Origin: a virus
Strand: one strand, 5' to 3'
DNA: 22,027 bases
IMG/VR virus record: IMGVR_UViG_3300034954_000646
Location: 1 to 22,027 of that record
Shown here: in pieces, positions 2,291-15,988 of the stretch
How positions within the stretch are numbered: position 1 is the first letter of the stretch
Layout: each line of letters opens with the position of its first letter
The notes under the pieces: generated by a model
Told to the model about the DNA's origin: nothing
The model's input: the letters and a program-made list of their open reading frames with translations, nothing else
The model's database searches: none
Position numbers and translations under genes: made by a program

Positions 2291-4786
2291 TCAAACGAAA
2301 AAAGAGTCTAGCGTTGCAGTTTTTTCAACTGACCAACCTATAGCATCTAAAATCGCCTTGAGTGGTTCGATAAAAGATTTATCAAACTGTAAATCGTAAT
2401 CAATGTAGGGTGCTAGACCTAATTCTACGGGAAAATCGTTGATGAATGATATAACATTCTCTCGTATTGGGTTAGGATTTTTTAGATAGCAGAATCTAAT
2501 CTTCTCACCGTTGTTGATCACATTATATTTACCCAACAAATTTCTTTCTTTGAGATAATGATTGAATAATAGCGATCCCCTAACATGTATTGGTGTTCCT
2601 TTCTGGTAGATGGTCAAGTGACTCCTATACTTAGCAACATTGTTACAAGTTCGAGGAAAAGCAATGTCAGCAGGGTTCATATTACGAAACTCACCCCTCA
2701 TTTTCTTAATATATTTTTGAACATTATCCTCTGACTCGTTCATAATGATGCTGATAGCATCCTTGATCATCTTACGACATGGTGCAGGGGTAGATGATTT
2801 GACTGCTTCGATGCCCATCATCTTCAACTTTGGTTCTGCAAATCTAACTCCTTCTATGTCCCATGCATTCAACATATATCTTTTCTTTGCTGTCCATATA
2901 CCACGTTCAGCGATAGTTTCTCGCTTCATGAACATCTTTTGTTCGTATGCGTTTACGTACGAGGCCAACGCTTCGTAAGAACTCGAAATATACTTCTCAA
3001 GTTCCACGTTACACACCTTATCAATGAACGAAACAATCCCCTCAGTAGTCTTTTCTCTACCTTCGTATACCCTATCGACCAAATCACCCATATGCAGATA
3101 GATAGAGTCAGTATCACTGGCAATAACATAGTCTTTCTCCTTTGTTTTTAGTACATTGTTCATGTATTGATTGATTTTACGCTCGATCCACCGAATGCTG
3201 AACTGACCACCGAGAGTAATCGCTTCAGCATTCGCAAGCATATAATAACGAAAATAATTATTCCCGATAGCACCATAGGCACTATTAAGTTGAATTTTTT
3301 TCGCCATTTGGATGTTGTTACACCTTGCAATTTCCTTTTCGAGACGCTTTGTAGGGGTTTTTTCATACTCCTTCTTTGCCTCAAGCATTTTTTTCTTGAA
3401 GATGACTCGTTCATTGTAAATTTTCTCCATCAATTTGGGTAAAAAACCACGTTTCTTTGTAGTAAACATGGCACCATTAGGACATACAGTAACATCCTTC
3501 AGACCAGATAGATCCACCTCTTCATTCAACAGTTTATCGACAGAAACTGAGGGAAACCGTTCATCAAGAACAGTCTCAGGAGATATATTATACTGCATTA
3601 TGAGGTGAGGGTACAGTGAGTTGAGGTCAAACGACACAACCCAGTCATACATGCCAGGTATAGGTTCCTTTACATAAGCACCTGCATACTTTTCTACCTT
3701 ATCATGCTCTTTTTTTGGTGGTATGACTATACCTTTCTTTTTCAAGTCGTTGTATATTATCATGTCCCACATGCGAACCTGATAAAACACGTCAGTAAAG
3801 TTTACCTTTGCGTCAAATGCCATGGTGATGGCAAGTTCTATCAGTTTCATCTTCTCTTCCAGTCCGTCAACGATTCTAACGTCTTGGATGTTGTAATCTA
3901 CAAATTTATTCCATGCTTTTGTGTAAAATTCCTTGAATGTATCATGTTCAGAGTGGTCTAGTTTCTTCTGTCCTAGTTCTACCTCACCAATATAGTCGAG
4001 TCTGTATGATTCTTGTGCCTTATAGGTAAACTTTTTGTACAAATCCATGTAATCTAGGACTGTCACACCTCCTATGTCATACATGAGGTGTGGACGACCT
4101 GCCATGTAGATCTCTTCGTGTGTTACCAATCCCCATGGTGACAGTTTCTTACATGCTTTGTCACCTAACACTCTTGTAATTCTCTTAGCAAGGTATGGTA
4201 TATCATATAACTGACAGTTCCACCCCGTGACTACCTCTGGTGGTGTTTTAGACCAGTAGTTTATGAAGTGTGTGAGCATATCATACTCATCATTACACTG
4301 CACATACTTGACCATCTTGTCTTGTGTCCTGTATGCACCTACACCAAAGGTCAGAATACGTTTAGTGTTGTAATCTTGTAGTGAAATGAGCAACATTTCC
4401 TCATCACATTTTTCTACAGTAGGAAATCCACTCTCTGATTTGACCTCTATATCAATCGTCACAAGATTCATTTTCTTGAGGTCAAATTTTATTTCATTCT
4501 CTGGATATCTGTCAGAAATATATTGATATATGTACCTGTTATTACCATACACCTCAAAGTTATCTACATTCTCATGACTTCTAATAAATTCTCTAGTCTC
4601 TCTGACTGTACCAGGTTGTATGCTCTGCACATACTTACCATCTAGTGTCCTATATTTTGTTTTTTTCTTACTAGGAACAAACATCGTGGGTTGGAATGAC
4701 TCCCTTGATGTAAAACTTTTGCCACCTTCATATCCACGGACGAGAAAATCATTCCCAACCATCTGGACATTAGTATAATATCTCAT
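2291..4786 (-). CDS. 43: DNA polymerase gp43 (family B) with 3'-5' exonuclease
   Basis: This is the replicative family B polymerase, 831 aa (T4 gp43 is about 898). Exonuclease motifs are visible: Exo I IDIE (D112, E114), Exo II NCQLYD (N190-D195) and Exo III YNIQD (Y298, D302). Polymerase motifs follow: motif A DLNSLYP (387-393), motif B K497 with NSAYG (501-505), and motif C DTDS (558-561). The C-terminus ATLDSFFV resembles the short hydrophobic peptide by which T4/RB69 polymerases bind the gp45 clamp. The ATG overlaps the stop of the radical-SAM gene by 4 nt (ATGA), so polymerase translation is coupled to that gene. All catalytic residues look intact. Confidence 0.98.
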   Translation of the reverse strand: MRYYTNVQMVGNDFLVRGYEGGKSFTSRESFQPTMFVPSKKKTKYRTLDGKYVQSIQPGTVRETREFIRSHENVDNFEVYGNNRYIYQYISDRYPENEIKFDLKKMNLVTIDIEVKSESGFPTVEKCDEEMLLISLQDYNTKRILTFGVGAYRTQDKMVKYVQCNDEYDMLTHFINYWSKTPPEVVTGWNCQLYDIPYLAKRITRVLGDKACKKLSPWGLVTHEEIYMAGRPHLMYDIGGVTVLDYMDLYKKFTYKAQESYRLDYIGEVELGQKKLDHSEHDTFKEFYTKAWNKFVDYNIQDVRIVDGLEEKMKLIELAITMAFDAKVNFTDVFYQVRMWDMIIYNDLKKKGIVIPPKKEHDKVEKYAGAYVKEPIPGMYDWVVSFDLNSLYPHLIMQYNISPETVLDERFPSVSVDKLLNEEVDLSGLKDVTVCPNGAMFTTKKRGFLPKLMEKIYNERVIFKKKMLEAKKEYEKTPTKRLEKEIARCNNIQMAKKIQLNSAYGAIGNNYFRYYMLANAEAITLGGQFSIRWIERKINQYMNNVLKTKEKDYVIASDTDSIYLHMGDLVDRVYEGREKTTEGIVSFIDKVCNVELEKYISSSYEALASYVNAYEQKMFMKRETIAERGIWTAKKRYMLNAWDIEGVRFAEPKLKMMGIEAVKSSTPAPCRKMIKDAISIIMNESEDNVQKYIKKMRGEFRNMNPADIAFPRTCNNVAKYRSHLTIYQKGTPIHVRGSLLFNHYLKERNLLGKYNVINNGEKIRFCYLKNPNPIRENVISFINDFPVELGLAPYIDYDLQFDKSFIEPLKAILDAIGWSVEKTATLDSFFV

Positions 4787-6207
4787 ACGAGCATCTTAGC
4801 ACGTTCACGGTACAGTGTCACGAAGTTATCAAACATGTATTGAATATCCTCCCTACTCATATATGGTGATGGCATATCAAGAAAAGATCCTTGATCATCA
4901 CTTCTCATCTCAACGATAAGATCTTTGTCTATAAAACCAGCATCCACACACATATCTCTCATAGGTGTGCCATGGTAGGGAGTGTATATGAAAGCGTTTG
5001 TATCATCACATCCTAGTTTTGCTGCTAAATCAACAGACTTCATACAACTTTCCATTGTTTCATATGGGTATCCTATAATAAAATTACATGTGGTCGACAA
5101 ACCTGCTTCTCTGGCAATTCTAAAAGCATCTATTGCTTTTTGATTATCATACACTCTACCTATGACATCTTTACGGAACTGTGGATCTCCATGCTCCACA
5201 CCCATGTTCAATTTTTCACATCCTATCTCGACTAATCTCTTTGCTTGGTGGGGTGATAACAGTTCTGGTCTAGTTTGAGCAAAAAAAGGTATCTTATATT
5301 TGGAATACATGTCACAGAACTCATCAAATTTTTTCTTTGATGTTGTGAGTAATGTATCTGTTACTATCCATAGAAATTCTACATCAATAGTTTTTATAAG
5401 GTGCTGTATCTCCATTTCTATATGTTCAACAGTCCTGTGTCTGAAGAACAAACTATCAGTTTCTTCTTTGTATATCCCTGCATTTGATGGCGAGTTGCAA
5501 AACTTACATTTGAATGGACATCCACGTTGCGTCTCGACTGTGGCAATTTTGATTATCTTTCCTTGAAAAGGTCTATACAATGATCTCTTGTCAAATATCT
5601 CATGATCTGTAGGTGGCAAAGTATTGACATTCAATGCAGGTCTCATTTCATTTGGATAGATGTTTGATAAATGATGCCCCTCTTTACCCTCACTAATCAA
5701 GTCCATCAACTCTGGTATTACTTCATCACCCTCACCTCTACAAATATAATCTGCCTTACCCACAAATTCTTCTGGATTGTATGTAACAAAAACACCACCA
5801 ACAACACTGATAAATTTTTGATCAGAAATCTGATTCATAAATTTACGCCATATGTAATATGTGTCTTCTACGATTGATGATATAATAACATCTGGTTTAT
5901 ATTCTACTACCTTCTTTCTCCAAGCAACATACATATTTTCATTCTCTAGAGTAAAAAAATCTGACTCTACATCATCTCTCTCCCATTTATATTCTGGGAA
6001 CATTTGTCTTTTCTCTCTCTCCTTATCTCTATCTGGTCTTGAAAATTCTTCCTCATCCACTGGATACCATGTGGCATCAAATAATTCAATGTTACTATAA
6101 CCTGCTCTCTTCAAACATGCAGTGATAATTGCAACACCACCAGGTGGTGTAACTCTCATGTGCTGATTAGGATAACACCATAATATTCTAAGACTTTTCT
6201 GTGACAT
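4783..6207 (-). CDS. B12-binding-type radical SAM enzyme
   Basis: The 474-aa protein has an N-terminal cobalamin-binding-like Rossmann domain (about 1-200, with VVGGVFVTYNPEEF near 136-149 and CRGEGDE near 156) followed by a radical SAM core with the 4Fe-4S motif CPFKCKFC (C230, C234, C237). Later segments such as GVEHGD and FIIGYPYET fit the TIM-barrel. Such enzymes catalyse methyl transfer or ring and C-C bond chemistry, for example in lipid, hopanoid or tetrapyrrole modification; the substrate here is not evident. The gene overlaps its upstream neighbour by 20 nt and the polymerase gene by 4 nt. It looks intact and is probably an auxiliary metabolic gene carried inside the replication operon. 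Confidence 0.88.
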   Translation of the reverse strand: MSQKSLRILWCYPNQHMRVTPPGGVAIITACLKRAGYSNIELFDATWYPVDEEEFSRPDRDKEREKRQMFPEYKWERDDVESDFFTLENENMYVAWRKKVVEYKPDVIISSIVEDTYYIWRKFMNQISDQKFISVVGGVFVTYNPEEFVGKADYICRGEGDEVIPELMDLISEGKEGHHLSNIYPNEMRPALNVNTLPPTDHEIFDKRSLYRPFQGKIIKIATVETQRGCPFKCKFCNSPSNAGIYKEETDSLFFRHRTVEHIEMEIQHLIKTIDVEFLWIVTDTLLTTSKKKFDEFCDMYSKYKIPFFAQTRPELLSPHQAKRLVEIGCEKLNMGVEHGDPQFRKDVIGRVYDNQKAIDAFRIAREAGLSTTCNFIIGYPYETMESCMKSVDLAAKLGCDDTNAFIYTPYHGTPMRDMCVDAGFIDKDLIVEMRSDDQGSFLDMPSPYMSREDIQYMFDNFVTLYRERAKMLV

Positions 6208-9074: not shown

Positions 9075-9309
9075 GGTCTTTCAAGAAATCACTGAGTGAA
9101 GATTGGAACTGACCCTCATTTTCTTTTGGGTCAAACTTGTGATATCCTTTCATTCTCTTCCATTCATTATACATTGCACCAAGTAACCATGATTGAGACA
9201 GACTCTTTGCTCCGTTCTCTAGAAGTTCTCGCTGTCTTTTAGTGACATGTTTGTAACCGAGGTAGTCTTCCCTCCAGTTACTGTCATCGTAAGGTTTACT
9301 TTGTGTCAT
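9067..9309 (-). CDS. Small hypothetical protein
   Basis: The 80-aa product from the ATG at 9309 (MTQSKPYDDSNWREDYLGYK) is hydrophilic, helical and without recognised domains; it contains ENGAKSLSQSWLLGAMYNEW and ends SSLSDFLKDHG. A GTG at 9348 would add 13 basic residues but would enlarge the overlap with the upstream gene from 14 to 53 nt, so I prefer the ATG. It overlaps the following 54-aa ORF by 8 nt. Position inside the overlapping operon supports it being translated; nothing indicates its role. Confidence 0.65.
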   Translation of the reverse strand: MTQSKPYDDSNWREDYLGYKHVTKRQRELLENGAKSLSQSWLLGAMYNEWKRMKGYHKFDPKENEGQFQSSLSDFLKDHG

Positions 9310-9808
9310 AGGTAAAGGTTTTTCCCTTCTTCTGGGTTTCGTTTTCACCAGATCTACCAGGTCTCATCTTTCCAAGTTTGATGTTTCTCTTGGGTAACCC
9401 ACCTTTTCTGGTTCTCTTTAGTGTAGCACTTTTATCACCTTTTTGCTGAGTTATTACAGAGTCCTGACCATATTTCTTACCTAAGGACTTGACTGCCTTT
9501 TTGAACTTTCTCTTTCCCATCTTACCAGACTGTATCACATGACTTCTTTCCTTGACTCTCTTAGTCTGACCTGTCTTCTCATCTTTCTCATCATATTTTC
9601 CAGTTACTTTAGTTGCACCCTTACCAAATTTACTACGTATGTCTCTATCAAGTTTCTTCGCTCTCGCTCTGTTCTCTTTAGCAGACAAATTACCTCTTGA
9701 TGCTGACATCACAGCAGTGCCACCCTTGTCAGACTGTGACTTTAGGCGAGTCATGCTGCTCTCATCTAACTCAGGTATATCATCTATGAATTGTTGAAAC
9801 GTTTTCAT
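9296..9808 (-). CDS. Very basic protein with a capsid-targeting-like N-terminus
   Basis: The 170-aa protein starts MKTFQQFIDDIPELDE. T4 internal head proteins (IPI-III) start MKTYQEFIAE, the capsid-targeting sequence removed by the prohead protease gp21 after (L/I)-x-E. Here I-P-E and L-D-E lie at residues 11-13 and 14-16, in the right place for cleavage. The rest is strongly basic: by hand count about 46 Lys/Arg against 14 Asp/Glu in the remaining 154 residues, with runs such as KMGKRKFKKAVKSLGKK. By analogy it could be packed into the head and injected with DNA. It overlaps the methylase gene by 29 nt upstream. No enzymatic motif is visible. The packaging role is inference; the ORF itself is secure. 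Confidence 0.85.
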   Translation of the reverse strand: MKTFQQFIDDIPELDESSMTRLKSQSDKGGTAVMSASRGNLSAKENRARAKKLDRDIRSKFGKGATKVTGKYDEKDEKTGQTKRVKERSHVIQSGKMGKRKFKKAVKSLGKKYGQDSVITQQKGDKSATLKRTRKGGLPKRNIKLGKMRPGRSGENETQKKGKTFTYDTK

Positions 9809-10616
9809 AATTCGTTAGTACAAGTTCCTTCCTTTTCTTTTGTTCTTTGATGTAATCGCCAGTCGATCTCATCGTGTAGGTGTGATCGTACTCTGCTGCT
9901 TTCCAATCAGCGAATCTTCTTTTATTTAGATTTGATGAATTATAACTTACAATCATGTCATGATTAGATGCTGTGCATGCTTCAGAAAATCTAGTGTGAT
10001 GAAAATATTTTTGCATGCCACCCTTCTTACCATAAAGATTTGATCCTATCTCATATGGTGGATCAAGATATATGAAAGATCCCTTACCATCAAGCATGTG
10101 TTCATAAGATAGATTTGTTATTTTCCAATGCTTGATAAGATTCTGATACCCTGATAATTTTTCTATACCATTCATTGAGAAATTAGAATCACTTGCTTGT
10201 GCTGAGAAAGAACTGTTCTCTCCTAGTCCACTGAAACTACACTTGTTGATAATATAAAAAGCAACTGCACGATCTAAATCATCGCCAGTTGATACTTGAT
10301 TCTTACACTCTAAAAATAATTCCTTTGCTTTATCTGGATCAGGATTCTCTTCTTTTATATTTGACAAAATATCTTGCATCTCACCACCACTTGTCTGTAA
10401 CTGTGTCCAAAAATTGTACAGTGGTTCATACAAATCATTTACCCATATCAATAGGTCAGGGTAGGTCTTTGTAACCCATAGGGAAACAGACCCACCTCCT
10501 ACAAATGGTTCTCTGAATTGATCATACTTACTTAGATCAGGAAAAAACTCACTGATCTTTGTGATTGCTCTGCTCTTACCGCCAGGATAACGCAGGGGTG
10601 TTTTCAAGTTCTTCAT
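9780..10616 (-). CDS. dam: Dam-type (D12 class) DNA adenine N6-methyltransferase
   Basis: This protein (278 aa from the ATG at 10616) transfers a methyl group from S-adenosylmethionine to adenine N6 in DNA. It has the D12-class landmarks: PLRYPGGKSR (N-terminal PGGK), FREPFVGGGSV (SAM-binding FxGGG motif) and FIYLDPPYEIG (catalytic DPPY). Length fits Dam and T4 Dam (259 aa). The recognition site, GATC or other, cannot be read from the sequence. The ATG overlaps the epimerase gene by 41 nt; a TTG three codons in would shorten this. It could protect phage DNA from restriction or mark replicated DNA. It lies beside the candidate head-internal basic protein. Confidence 0.92.
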   Translation of the reverse strand: MKNLKTPLRYPGGKSRAITKISEFFPDLSKYDQFREPFVGGGSVSLWVTKTYPDLLIWVNDLYEPLYNFWTQLQTSGGEMQDILSNIKEENPDPDKAKELFLECKNQVSTGDDLDRAVAFYIINKCSFSGLGENSSFSAQASDSNFSMNGIEKLSGYQNLIKHWKITNLSYEHMLDGKGSFIYLDPPYEIGSNLYGKKGGMQKYFHHTRFSEACTASNHDMIVSYNSSNLNKRRFADWKAAEYDHTYTMRSTGDYIKEQKKRKELVLTNYENVSTIHR

Positions 10617-11493
10617 GGATGTAGTCTTCAATTGATTTACGAGGGAACCAGTTCAAAGCAACTGCTGCTTTGTAAATTTCAGCAAGGGTTTCTCTTGCTT
10701 CACCAGGTCTTTCTGGTATGTATTCAATATCTCCCCCTATCATATTAGCAAGATCAATGACAGATGTATTTTTACCTGTGCCAATGTTGATCTCTATGCC
10801 AGAAAAATTACACATCATAGCGTCTATGTTTGCTTCAACAACATCACTAACATGAGTAAAGTCTCTTCGTTGTAAACCATCACCTACCACGGTAAGTGGT
10901 TTACCTGCCTTCTTCTGTTCTAAAAACAGACCAACCACAGGAGCATATAATCCTTTGAGTGGTTGACGATCACCATAAACATTGAAGTATCTTAGTGTAA
11001 TAGTTCTAAGACCGAACAAGTTATGGTACATCTGACACATAATTTCTGCTGATCTTTTACTAGCAGAGTAATGATTCAGACAATCAGTGGGCATGTCCTC
11101 TCTCAAGGGTGGTTCGTTCTTCAAACCATAGAGAGATGATGTGGATGAGTTGATAAACCTTCTCACACCCCACATTCTTGCACACTCCAACATGTTGACA
11201 GTGCCTTGAATGTTAGTGTCAAGACACTCTTGTGGATTCTGCATAGCAACTTGTATTCTGCTATGTGCTGCTAAATGGAAGACGGTATCCACACCCTCAA
11301 ATAGAGGATAGCAAGCATCCATATCACGGATGTCAAAAGAATGATACTCAGCGAGTGGGTTGTTATAAAATTTTTCATTAGATACAGCAGACTCGTTGTC
11401 AATAACAACGACCTCATTGTTTTCATTTTTGCATAGTCTATCGACTATATGGGAACCGATAAAACCCGATCCACCAGTTACTAAACATTTCAT
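10576..11493 (-). CDS. NAD-dependent sugar-nucleotide epimerase/dehydratase
   Basis: This 305-aa protein is an extended short-chain dehydrogenase of the UDP-glucose/UDP-GlcNAc 4-epimerase kind. The NAD-binding TGGSGFIGSH is at residues 6-15, NSSTSSLYG at 115-123 carries the catalytic Ser/Thr, and HYSASK holds the YxxxK pair (Y142, K146). The C-terminal substrate part (LRYFNVYGDRQPLKG, GDGLQRRDFTHVSDVVEAN) is complete. It probably interconverts or prepares a nucleotide sugar, either for phage glycosylation or to change the host surface. The ATG overlaps the gp44 stop by 4 nt (ATGA), so it is translated with the clamp loader. Confidence 0.92.
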   Translation of the reverse strand: MKCLVTGGSGFIGSHIVDRLCKNENNEVVVIDNESAVSNEKFYNNPLAEYHSFDIRDMDACYPLFEGVDTVFHLAAHSRIQVAMQNPQECLDTNIQGTVNMLECARMWGVRRFINSSTSSLYGLKNEPPLREDMPTDCLNHYSASKRSAEIMCQMYHNLFGLRTITLRYFNVYGDRQPLKGLYAPVVGLFLEQKKAGKPLTVVGDGLQRRDFTHVSDVVEANIDAMMCNFSGIEINIGTGKNTSVIDLANMIGGDIEYIPERPGEARETLAEIYKAAVALNWFPRKSIEDYIHEELENTPALSWR

Positions 11494-14545: not shown

Positions 14546-14574
14546 AGTATAACATGCTATCTATTTTTTTGCAA
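14546..14574 (-). promoter_or_regulatory. Sigma-70-like promoter for gp45
   Basis: On the minus strand TTGCAA (14574-14569), a 17-nt spacer and TATACT (14551-14546) form a promoter, with an extended -10 (TGTTATACT). It starts within the last codons of the 106-aa gene and would give an mRNA with a leader of about 37 nt before the gp45 ATG. The -10 context CATGTTATACT closely resembles CATGCTATAAT before gp55. Confidence 0.65.
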
Positions 14575-14877
14575 TCTCTCCACTGCTGTTGATGCTTGAA
14601 TTGCTGGCACGTCATTCAATCCATTTACATCAAACCAAGGAGCATTCTCCCAGTCAAATCCCTCTCCAAACGTGTTGTCTGCCTGTTGCACATACCAATG
14701 ACACTGAGCATCAGGTATGTCAACTGCACAAACCGCCCAGTCATCTGTCCACTGTGGCACTTGCACATACAATACTGGCACATCTGCATACGCAGTAGTA
14801 GACACTCCAATAAGTATTGCAAAGGTTACTGCCCATGCAAATATTTTTGGTACCCAACTGATAGGTAGTCTGTTCAT
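14557..14877 (-). CDS. Exported or membrane-anchored protein of the hli cluster
   Basis: I do not recognise this 106-aa protein. It starts MNRLPISWVPKIFAWAVTF, a basic N-region followed by a hydrophobic segment ending STTAYADVPV, which looks like a signal peptide with an AYA-D cleavage site near residue 31. The exported part is small, acidic and Trp-rich, with two cysteines (C49, C59) that could form a disulfide: VPQWTDDWAVCAVDIPDAQC then HWY. A periplasmic or thylakoid-lumen location is likely. It is the last member of the coupled chain that begins with hli genes; its ATG overlaps the stop of the 30-aa peptide by 4 nt. Confidence 0.75.
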   Translation of the reverse strand: MNRLPISWVPKIFAWAVTFAILIGVSTTAYADVPVLYVQVPQWTDDWAVCAVDIPDAQCHWYVQQADNTFGEGFDWENAPWFDVNGLNDVPAIQASTAVERLQKNR

Positions 14878-14966
14878 ACGATACCTGCCATACCTGCTGC
14901 TGTTCCTATTATAACAAAGAAACCAAATTCTATAAGTGGGTAGTAGGGATTAGAAAATACTCTCAT
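14874..14966 (-). CDS. 30-aa hydrophobic micro-protein
   Basis: A 30-codon ORF, MRVFSNPYYPLIEFGFFVII then GTAAGMAGIV, overlaps both neighbours by 4 nt: its ATG (14966) sits in the stop of the 24-aa ORF and its TGA in the ATG of the 106-aa gene. Residues about 10-30 are one continuous hydrophobic, glycine/alanine-containing helix. Size and topology recall low-molecular-weight photosystem or cytochrome b6f subunits, but I see no specific match. Coupling on both sides is the evidence for translation. Confidence 0.6.
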   Translation of the reverse strand: MRVFSNPYYPLIEFGFFVIIGTAAGMAGIV

Positions 14967-15037
14967 GCGAAAGCAATGTTACCTACACCTGACACTATGT
15001 AGAGTGCTACAACTGATGTAAAAAGAATGTGATACAT
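14963..15037 (-). CDS. 24-aa hydrophobic micro-protein
   Basis: A 24-codon ORF, MYHILFTSVVALYIVSGVGN then IAFA, is almost entirely one transmembrane helix. It has a good Shine-Dalgarno, AAGGAG, 4 nt before the ATG, embedded in the last codons of the upstream 56-aa gene. The ATG overlaps that gene's TAA by one base (TAATG) and its own TGA overlaps the next ATG (ATGA). A good ribosome site on so short an ORF argues that it is translated, either for the peptide or to hand ribosomes to the next gene. Confidence 0.6.
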   Translation of the reverse strand: MYHILFTSVVALYIVSGVGNIAFA

Positions 15038-15207
15038 TATACTCCTTGATAAACTGGGGACATTACGCCACCGCCTTGGTCATCGTCATCGTCATCACCA
15101 TTGACGGCACGTAAAAATAATTCTATAAAAACTATGGCACCTATGGGGTAGAACGCCCATAGGATTGCCTGAAAAGGTGTAATAGTATGTGGTTCTAAAC
15201 CTGTCAT
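15037..15207 (-). CDS. 56-aa membrane protein with poly-Asp tail
   Basis: The ORF encodes MTGLEPHTITPFQAILWAFY, a transmembrane segment continuing PIGAIVFIELFLRAV, then NGDDDDDDQGGG and MSPVYQGV. It is a single-pass protein (helix about residues 12-34) with a run of six aspartates next to glycines, placing a strong negative charge on one membrane face. The ATG lies 2 nt after the hli-3 stop and its own stop overlaps the next ATG by one base. I know no function; similar short proteins near hli in cyanophages are plausible but I cannot verify this here. Confidence 0.75.
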   Translation of the reverse strand: MTGLEPHTITPFQAILWAFYPIGAIVFIELFLRAVNGDDDDDDQGGGVMSPVYQGV

Positions 15208-15209
15208 AC

Positions 15210-15332
15210 TTACACGTAACCAGGAATCAATTGTCCTGTTGTGAGGTATGCTCCGATACCTGCGATGATGCCGAGCATGGCAAGTCTGCCATTTAGTTTC
15301 TCAGCAACTTTTTTTGACTCTTTATCTGTCAT
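15210..15332 (-). CDS. hli: High-light-inducible protein (hli copy 3)
   Basis: Hli proteins are single-helix relatives of the LHC/CAB family that bind chlorophyll and carotenoid and protect photosystem II. The 40-aa product MTDKESKKVAEKLNGRLAML continues GIIAGIGAYLTTGQLIPGYV and has the intact ExxNGRxAM chlorophyll-binding signature with the TTGQ/PG end. I use the ATG at 15332, which overlaps the stop of hli copy 2 by one base; a longer reading frame upstream is the other-frame shadow of copy 2. It ends 2 nt before the 56-aa gene. Confidence 0.92.
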   Translation of the reverse strand: MTDKESKKVAEKLNGRLAMLGIIAGIGAYLTTGQLIPGYV

Positions 15333-15439
15333 TAGAAGATGCCTGGAATGATGTTTCCTGTTGTAGCGTATGCTCCGACTGCTGCAACGAAACCAATCAT
15401 TGCACACCAACCGTTGAACTTTTCTGCTTCTGGTGTCAT
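15332..15439 (-). CDS. hli: High-light-inducible protein (hli copy 2), 35 aa
   Basis: The shortest hli copy, 35 aa: MTPEAEKFNGWCAMIGFVAA then VGAYATTGNIIPGIF. The membrane helix and TTGxIIPG end match the other copies, but the usual NGR of the ExxNGRxAM signature reads NGW, losing the arginine that normally forms an ion pair with a glutamate across the helix dimer. It may pair with a full Hli rather than with itself. The ATG at 15439 overlaps the hli-1 stop by one base and has AGGAG 7 nt upstream within hli-1. Confidence 0.9.
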   Translation of the reverse strand: MTPEAEKFNGWCAMIGFVAAVGAYATTGNIIPGIF

Positions 15440-15636
15440 TAGAATACTCCTGGAATAATTTGACCTGTAGTGATGTAAGCACCAAGTAGTGCTACAAATC
15501 CAATCATCGCCCAACGACCATTTACTTTTTCTGCATTTTGTGGATACCCTTCGTAGGATACGGACTCGTCTATGTAAGGACGAACTTCAGTTGGAAATGC
15601 ATTTTGTCTTCCACCTGATTCAGTAGTTACGGTCAT
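15439..15636 (-). CDS. hli: High-light-inducible protein (hli copy 1), 65 aa
   Basis: The first and longest hli copy, 65 aa, has a hydrophilic N-terminal extension (MTVTTESGGRQNAFPTEVRP, about 33 residues) before the chlorophyll-binding helix AEKVNGRWAMIGFVALLGAY and the TTGQIIPGVF end. The ExxNGRxAM signature is intact. It heads a coupled operon and lies directly behind a consensus sigma-70 promoter, which suggests early expression to keep photosynthesis running during infection. No Shine-Dalgarno is visible before its ATG. Its C-terminal PGVF codons contain the ribosome binding site for copy 2. Confidence 0.95.
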   Translation of the reverse strand: MTVTTESGGRQNAFPTEVRPYIDESVSYEGYPQNAEKVNGRWAMIGFVALLGAYITTGQIIPGVF

Positions 15637-15662: not shown

Positions 15663-15691
15663 ATTATATAGGAAATATAAAGTTTTGTAAA
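15663..15691 (-). promoter_or_regulatory. Consensus sigma-70 promoter for the hli operon
   Basis: On the minus strand TTTACA (15691-15686), a 17-nt spacer and TATAAT (15668-15663) match the bacterial consensus at 11 of 12 positions. It lies about 27 nt before the hli-1 ATG, in a 90-nt gap without a supported gene, so host polymerase should start the hli micro-ORF operon early in infection. Confidence 0.75.
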
Positions 15692-15725: not shown

Positions 15726-15848
15726 TTACTCACCCTTATCAATCGGTGTTGTGAACTTGAGATACAAGGATATCACTATGGCAGCAGGTACCGTAGTGAG
15801 AAAAATTATCATCAAAACCATCACCACCATGTTAGCAATATCTGACAT
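15726..15848 (-). CDS. 40-aa single-pass membrane micro-protein
   Basis: The ORF encodes MSDIANMVVMVLMIIFLTTV followed by PAAIVISLYLKFTTPIDKGE: a short polar start, one long hydrophobic helix with a central proline, and a basic-to-acidic tail. The order V-P-x-A, then Y-x-K-x-T after the helix, recalls the photosystem II subunit PsbM, but the likeness is short and could be convergence. A GATAAATA late-promoter-like motif ends 22 nt before the ATG. It stands alone in an otherwise gene-poor 350-nt stretch. No Shine-Dalgarno is seen. Confidence 0.55.
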   Translation of the reverse strand: MSDIANMVVMVLMIIFLTTVPAAIVISLYLKFTTPIDKGE

Positions 15849-15868: not shown

Positions 15869-15988
15869 CTATTTATCACAATATTGTATCACCCACCCAT
15901 GCACATCATTCTTCAGTACATGTGAAGTCAAGTGAGCACCCTCTATTACTACCATACAACTCAATAATATTACTATAATTTTCTGCAT
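15869..15988 (-). CDS. 39-aa possible exported peptide behind the terminator
   Basis: A 39-codon ORF, MQKIIVILLSCMVVIEGAHL then TSHVLKNDVHGWVIQYCDK, begins with a signal-peptide-like basic and hydrophobic N-terminus and ends in a small polar part with a cysteine. Its ATG follows directly after the U-run of the terminator, so it would be translated only from read-through RNA, and no Shine-Dalgarno exists. The hydrophobic start could be chance in AT-rich DNA. I list it as a possible gene only. Confidence 0.35.
   Translation of the reverse strand: MQKIIVILLSCMVVIEGAHLTSHVLKNDVHGWVIQYCDK
15870..15877 (-). promoter_or_regulatory. Late-promoter-like motif GATAAATA
   Basis: The minus strand reads GATAAATA, seven of eight bases of the T4 late consensus TATAAATA. 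It lies 22 nt before the ATG of the 40-aa membrane peptide, the right distance for a short-leader late transcript. The flanking DNA is AT-rich, so chance is possible. Confidence 0.4.

Follow-up and report, generated by a model that had tools for sequence, protein, structure and literature searches.

In Synechocystis, Psb34 and the high-light-inducible proteins (Hlips) HliA and HliB have an N-terminal arm in common, and their binding to CP47-containing PSII depends on PsbH; HliC is the partner of HliA/B (PMC9458560). The first gene of the phage locus described here, hli1, encodes a Hlip helix with a weakly Psb34-like N-terminus, and short Hlips are encoded with it. Different from Synechocystis, these short Hlips are 35-40 aa long, and one has Trp in place of Arg in its motif. 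The four genes that follow, o56, o24, o30 and o106, have no known counterpart in the HliA/B-HliC/Psb34 system (PMC9458560).

Clusters of hli genes in cyanophages are not new. The available part of Sullivan 2010 (PMC3037559) catalogues them, along with the T4-like clusters GC 267/436 (hli), 437, 554/594 and 438. In P-HM1, P-HM2 and P-SSM4, hli03/hli04 are followed by GC437 (o56) and GC438 (o106), which are the same loci, and GC554/594 overlap the position of o30 in P-HM1 and P-HM2. Within that part of the catalogue o24 is unannotated, and the ORFs are not presented as one coupled chain. GC438 is listed as 'carboxylesterase', which the models used here do not support.

Two other arrangements come close. 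Prochlorococcus hosts have o56-PTOX (plastoquinol oxidase) and hli-o30-o56 loci (L258, L257, L231) with the same protein families, and in L231 an hli stop and the o56 start overlap too. Compared to the phage chain, the host genes are mostly dispersed and come in a different order, with o30 before o56 in L257, and a search of 151 host genomes found no o24. Synechococcus phages carry a psbD-o106-70aa-o56-like train (ACG-2014f, L007), likewise with overlapping micro-ORFs, the o106 core and an o56-like protein with a DDDDD tail. This train is however attached to psbD and not to hli, the N-terminus of its o106 is short and hydrophobic, and it contains no o24 or o30.

Already known are the hli clusters and GC437/438/554/594 (PMC3037559). 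This analysis adds the 24-aa gene, a coupled architecture seen in over 100 loci, host families for o56, o30 and o106, and the link to PTOX. No paper on any of these was found in the searches made of open-licence literature.

Layout of the chain

The window is the whole stretch of DNA analysed, a 22-kb virus contig (22,027 nucleotides) in which T4-like cyanophage replication genes flank the chain. The features are, from the promoter onwards:

15663..15691, minus strand: sigma-70-type promoter TTTACA-N17-TATAAT, 11/12 consensus positions
15439..15636, minus strand: hli1, 65 aa, Hlip with motif ExxNGRxAMIG and a putative HliA/B-type arm at the N-terminus
15332..15439, minus strand: hli2, 35 aa, ATG at 15439, short Hlip with motif ExxNGWCAMIG
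15210..15332, minus strand: hli3, 40 aa, ATG at 15332, short Hlip with motif ExxNGRLAMLG
15037..15207, minus strand: o56, 56 aa (T4-GC 437), one predicted helix followed by Arg and the tail Asp6-GGG-M-PVYQG
14963..15037, minus strand: o24, 24 aa, uncharged single predicted helix
14874..14966, minus strand: o30, 30 aa, one predicted helix, conserved EFxFFxxxGxxAGxxG
14557..14877, minus strand: o106, 106 aa (T4-GC 438), predicted exported/lumenal, conserved CAVDxPDxxCHWY

Re-reading the minus strand from hli1 through hli2, hli3, o56, o24 and o30 to o106 gives overlaps of 1 and 1 nt, a 2-nt gap, and overlaps of 1, 4 and 4 nt. The hli1/hli2 and hli2/hli3 overlaps are of the TAATG form, that of o24/o30 is ATGA. 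The seven micro-ORFs are as the initial annotation had them, with sizes and overlaps exact to the base. Its description of six of them as single helices, and of the last as exported, also holds up. In each of the seven proteins the most hydrophobic stretch of 19 residues has a Kyte-Doolittle mean of 1.5-2.1, which is the measure from which the helices are predicted, and o106 has a predicted signal peptide.

About 26 nt separate the promoter from the start codon of hli1, and it is the sole 11/12 sigma-70-type site near the chain. Among 88 relatives, the best site upstream of hli1 scores at least 10 in 74, of which 44 are perfect, against 2 of 88 when shuffled. The promoter that had been noted ahead of the chain is near-consensus and conserved. 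Expression early in infection had been proposed as well. Published data for P-HM2, where such genes belong to the middle class (PMC5082946), do not support this, and early timing was rejected on that evidence. An Rfam search of the window returned no RNA element.

By their sequences, hli1, hli2 and hli3 are clear members of phage Hlip families. hli1 matches phrog_178 (E=2e-28) as well as LHC-family entries in the PDB, and shares about 90% identity with Prochlorococcus Hlips along almost its entire length. Its residues 4-50 weakly match the Psb34 model NF033486 (E=0.01, below the cut-off of that model). hli2 matches phrog_178 (E=1e-19) and hli3 phrog_20629 (E=2e-20). Hlips are defined by one transmembrane helix with the chlorophyll-binding motif ExxN(G/A)RxAM(I/L)G, which is carried by hli1 and hli3, while hli2 has Trp for Arg. 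This Trp subclass is common among relatives, with 159 ORF matches versus 314 with Arg (nested starts counted), and also occurs in hosts. For Pfam PF00504, hli1 scores 20.3 and hli3 20.9 where the gathering cut-off is 22.3, and hli2 has no match. Such scores are expected and not decisive, because these proteins are only 35-65 aa long.

The last gene of the chain, o106, matches phrog_14182 with E=2e-52, and there are 181 phage records. The predicted signal peptide at its N-terminus has a clear AYA|D signal-peptidase site, and both cysteines of the core CAVDxPDxxCHWY are invariant among 45 aligned proteins. There is no Pfam, NCBIfam or significant PDB match for o106. The 'carboxylesterase' label in public records has no Pfam, NCBIfam or structural support; its sole echo is the PHROG name 'esterase'. 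At 106 aa including the signal peptide, o106 is also too small for a typical alpha/beta hydrolase. AlphaFold gives mature o106 a mean pLDDT of 52, which is not confident, and the only confident helix of o106 is at the signal peptide.

The window holds some further small or overlapping genes. Upstream of hli1 are two small hydrophobic ORFs on the minus strand, of 40 aa (15726-15848) and 39 aa (15869-15988). They have relatives in 19 and 12 loci respectively, duplicates included, which are 63-97% identical among the matches listed. The 40-aa ORF has no significant PDB match. Elsewhere, a D12-class adenine methyltransferase gene (9780-10631, minus strand, PF02086, E=1e-29) overlaps at its end with the gene for an S-adenosylmethionine lyase family protein (9296-9808, minus strand, PF23780, E=7e-20). 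A gene for a radical-SAM protein with a B12-binding domain (4783-6207, minus strand) shares its last 4 nt with the start of the DNA polymerase gene.

Coding and coupling of the small frames

Two viral scans delivered 156 loci with relatives of o56 or o106, some of them on the same contigs. The isolates P-HM1, P-HM2, MED4-213, P-SSM3, P-SSM4, P-RSM3 and S-SSM4 were added to these. A frame of 18 codons or more counts as a coupled successor of o56 if its ATG is no further than 14 nt from the o56 stop.

Such a successor is present in 111 of 118 distinct phage loci. The frame is exactly 24 codons long in 81 of the 111, and 23-27 codons in 89. Most of the others are either a mini-Hlip (32-40 aa), an ORF of the o30 type or the beginning of an o106-like ORF. 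The initial annotation had suggested comparing the interval across cyanophages, with frames broken in close relatives counting against it; with o24 this constant, such breakage did not occur.

Counting on from the o56 stop, the mean number of coupled successors is 2.10, versus 0.08 when the downstream DNA is shuffled. After the first hli it is 2.88, versus 0.03. These counts rule out chance ORFs. Of 264 chain micro-ORFs of at most 70 aa, 262 are hydrophobic, as opposed to 26% of ORFs on the antisense strand and 7% in shuffles; the antisense figure rules out antisense effects.

The pN/pS ratios are 0.31-0.39 for o24, 0.19-0.27 for o30 and 0.24-0.34 for o56, all below every column-shuffled control (0.75-0.86 for o24), and they are descriptive because sequence pairs are not independent. 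Ten distinct nucleotide sequences code for the o24 peptide of the window, MYHILFTSVVALYIVSGVGNIAFA. Judged by their evolution, o24, o30 and o56 are real coding sequences under purifying selection.

The end of o56 is often TAT CAA GGA GCA TAA TG, which reads as YQGA-stop. A Shine-Dalgarno-like motif is found in the last codons of o56 in 100 of the 111 loci with a coupled successor, versus 1 of the 7 without (Fisher p=2e-5). Together with the TAATG and ATGA overlaps, this placement suggests that the genes are translationally coupled.

The smallest genes were said to be short enough for gene callers to miss, and this is what has happened. In P-HM1, P-HM2, MED4-213, P-SSM3, S-SSM4 and P-SSM7, six isolate genomes, o24 is present and unannotated. 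At the annotation level, P-SSM4 and P-RSM3 also have nothing in its place, and o30 is without annotation in P-SSM3. The o24 sequence classes diverge strongly, and some chains (L101, L108-L110) have no o24. o30 is found in 90 of 118 loci and is 30-38 aa long, with one of 48. In many loci it is 26-66 nt from o24 and hence uncoupled there, yet o24 is kept.

Mini-Hlips of 32-36 aa (for example MDWSHSYWKYAELVNGRLAMIGIIILLIKCLN) also occur directly after o56, where they replace or precede o24 (L154:2700-2800, L159, L060, L080).

Profile searches of the PDB returned a weak PsbM match for o56 (E=0.7), a weak PsaM match for o24 (E=3) and nothing for o30, so none that is significant. These three have no significant homology to a known small subunit of photosystem I or II. 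The PDB and family-model searches found no homology of o56, o24 or o30 to any characterised protein.

Relatives in phages and hosts

Apart from L007, all phage loci that extend 500 nt or more to the left have hli just upstream of o56. There are two main settings. One is gp46-OMP-hli-chain-gp45, and this is the setting of the window, where the chain lies between gp46/OMP and gp45 and not beside psbA. The other is hli-chain-psbA-psbD. The sequenced flanks contain a psbA-family match in 34 of 118 loci, and in Synechococcus phages o106 overlaps psbD or comes after it.

In 13 phage loci the o106 match is followed by PTOX at a distance of 131 nt, and L100 has a further coupled 28-aa ORF between the two. 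There is no PTOX nearby in the window or in many other chain-bearing phage loci.

Cyanophages have several micro-ORF trains of this kind, of which the chain is just one. Up to ten coupled small ORFs, almost all hydrophobic, run through the hli region in L030:1861-3349, L067, L144 and L118. In L105:2796-3380 and L100:3348-4107, o106 or PTOX sits amid other coupled tiny membrane ORFs, of 27, 33, 33, 28 and 58 aa, that overlap by 1 or 4 nt.

Homologues of hli, o56, o30 and o106 are found on Prochlorococcus host chromosomes. A contig scan with one low-complexity o56 pattern gave no match, and a later whole-genome profile search did find relatives. In this search, strong o56 homologues (E<1e-15) are present in 77 of 300 host genomes and strong o30 homologues in 89, while 70 genomes share both (raw counts that include related genomes). 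o106 homologues occur in 50 of 151 host genomes, with a best E of about 1e-41. These host matches are not stray phage contigs, because many are inside long chromosomal contigs. By this homology, o56, o30 and o106 belong to protein families of the host and are not phage inventions. For o24 the count is 0 of 151 host genomes, in a search that found the phage positive controls and that a strongly diverged copy could escape.

In 14 of 20 host loci, about 137 nt separate o56 from PTOX downstream of it (PF01786, E=2e-15), although these loci apparently represent one clade, with PTOX 90-100% identical across them. In L256, L257, L259, L269 and L231, hli, o30 and o56 are near each other. Host o106 adjoins genes resembling fur/znuB or peroxiredoxin, not photosynthesis genes.

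In larger, Synechococcus-size genomes, a small membrane protein whose DDDN-GGGG-M-PV tail resembles that of o56 lies beside HupE/CobW-like genes (L301:2915-3154, L302:2922-3161) and is possibly a remote relative of o56. Such weak matches were left uncounted because they mainly have the DDDN-GGG-M-P tail in common.

What the chain may do

The initial annotation suggested that the chain is perhaps an accessory to photosystem protection. This is the best available reading, because these are conserved membrane micro-genes with links to hli and, in phage and host alike, to genes of PSII or PTOX. What speaks against it is that the PTOX and psbA neighbourhoods are correlative, and that several come from single clades. 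It appears likely, if only moderately so, that the chain is a host-derived photoprotection operon of translationally coupled micro-genes, the thylakoid proteins of which help Hlips protect PSII and electron transport.

Such an operon would be transcribed from the single promoter as one message. Ribosomes would re-initiate along it so that the small proteins are co-produced, with the Shine-Dalgarno sequence of o24 inside the end of o56 linking the translation of o24 to that of o56. The proteins would presumably be inserted in the thylakoid membrane. There, the Hlips would be the pigment-binding part. hli1 may use its putative HliA/B-type arm to dock at CP47-containing PSII, and the short Hlips could be its helix partners, as HliC is for HliA/B. 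The proteins o56, o24 and o30 may be stabilising or docking helices for Hlips, for plastoquinol-oxidising machinery, or for both, and o106 would act on the lumenal side. The net effect would be to maintain PSII assembly and repair, and electron flow, in the light for as long as phage replication goes on. Complex formation, a PSII or PTOX partner and a benefit to the phage are all putative.

There are other ways to explain parts of the data. It could be that o24, and perhaps o30, are mainly coupling spacers that carry ribosomes from hli/o56 to o106, with peptides that do little. The start/stop overlaps and the Shine-Dalgarno placement are indeed tightly conserved, and the o24 classes are strongly divergent, lack a detectable host relative and are missing from some chains. 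A relay however has no need for purifying selection on amino acids, for one peptide being kept by 10 nucleotide sequences, or for an o24 of constant 24-aa length and constant hydrophobicity that persists where o30 is uncoupled from it. This makes such a relay unlikely. Small membrane proteins often serve phages in superinfection exclusion, in lysis timing or as toxins. The chain might similarly encode peptides for superinfection exclusion or lysis timing, or inner-membrane toxins, that take over the membrane and are unrelated to photosynthesis, and as far as seen o24 is phage-only. We consider this quite unlikely, given that the families of o56, o30 and o106 are found on host chromosomes, in some cases linked to hli or PTOX, and that the chain nearly always comes after hli and in many phages is beside psbA, psbD or PTOX.

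Closer to photoprotection, o56, o30 and o106 could serve a plastoquinone-oxidising valve (PTOX/electron flow) and not Hlips or PSII assembly. What favours this is that PTOX comes after o56 in 14 of 20 host loci and after o106 in 13 phage loci. Adjacency to hli is however far more constant, the PTOX counts come from few clades, and many phage chains, including that of the window, have no PTOX near them, which leaves the valve improbable as the sole role. A wider form of the photoprotection reading is more tentative. Cyanophages and Prochlorococcus might share a previously undescribed microprotein set, consisting of o56, o30, o106 and the phage-specific 24-aa member, that physically accompanies Hlips and PTOX. 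In phages, where it would be strung into trains of up to ten coupled ORFs, it would act as a rapidly assembled thylakoid stress complex. This is possible, and we hold it with some doubt.

The photosynthesis genes of cyanophages affect ocean primary production, and attention has so far been on the large named ones, psbA, psbD, PTOX and hli. The same loci hold a conserved layer of microproteins, including a 24-aa gene that was missed in the isolate genomes checked. Laboratory phage-host pairs exist in the form of P-HM1, P-HM2 or MED4-213 on MED4. Since the microproteins are mostly host families, some of which are found beside Hlips or PTOX, Hlips and PTOX may have small partners in Prochlorococcus too, and these proteins are candidates for that role.
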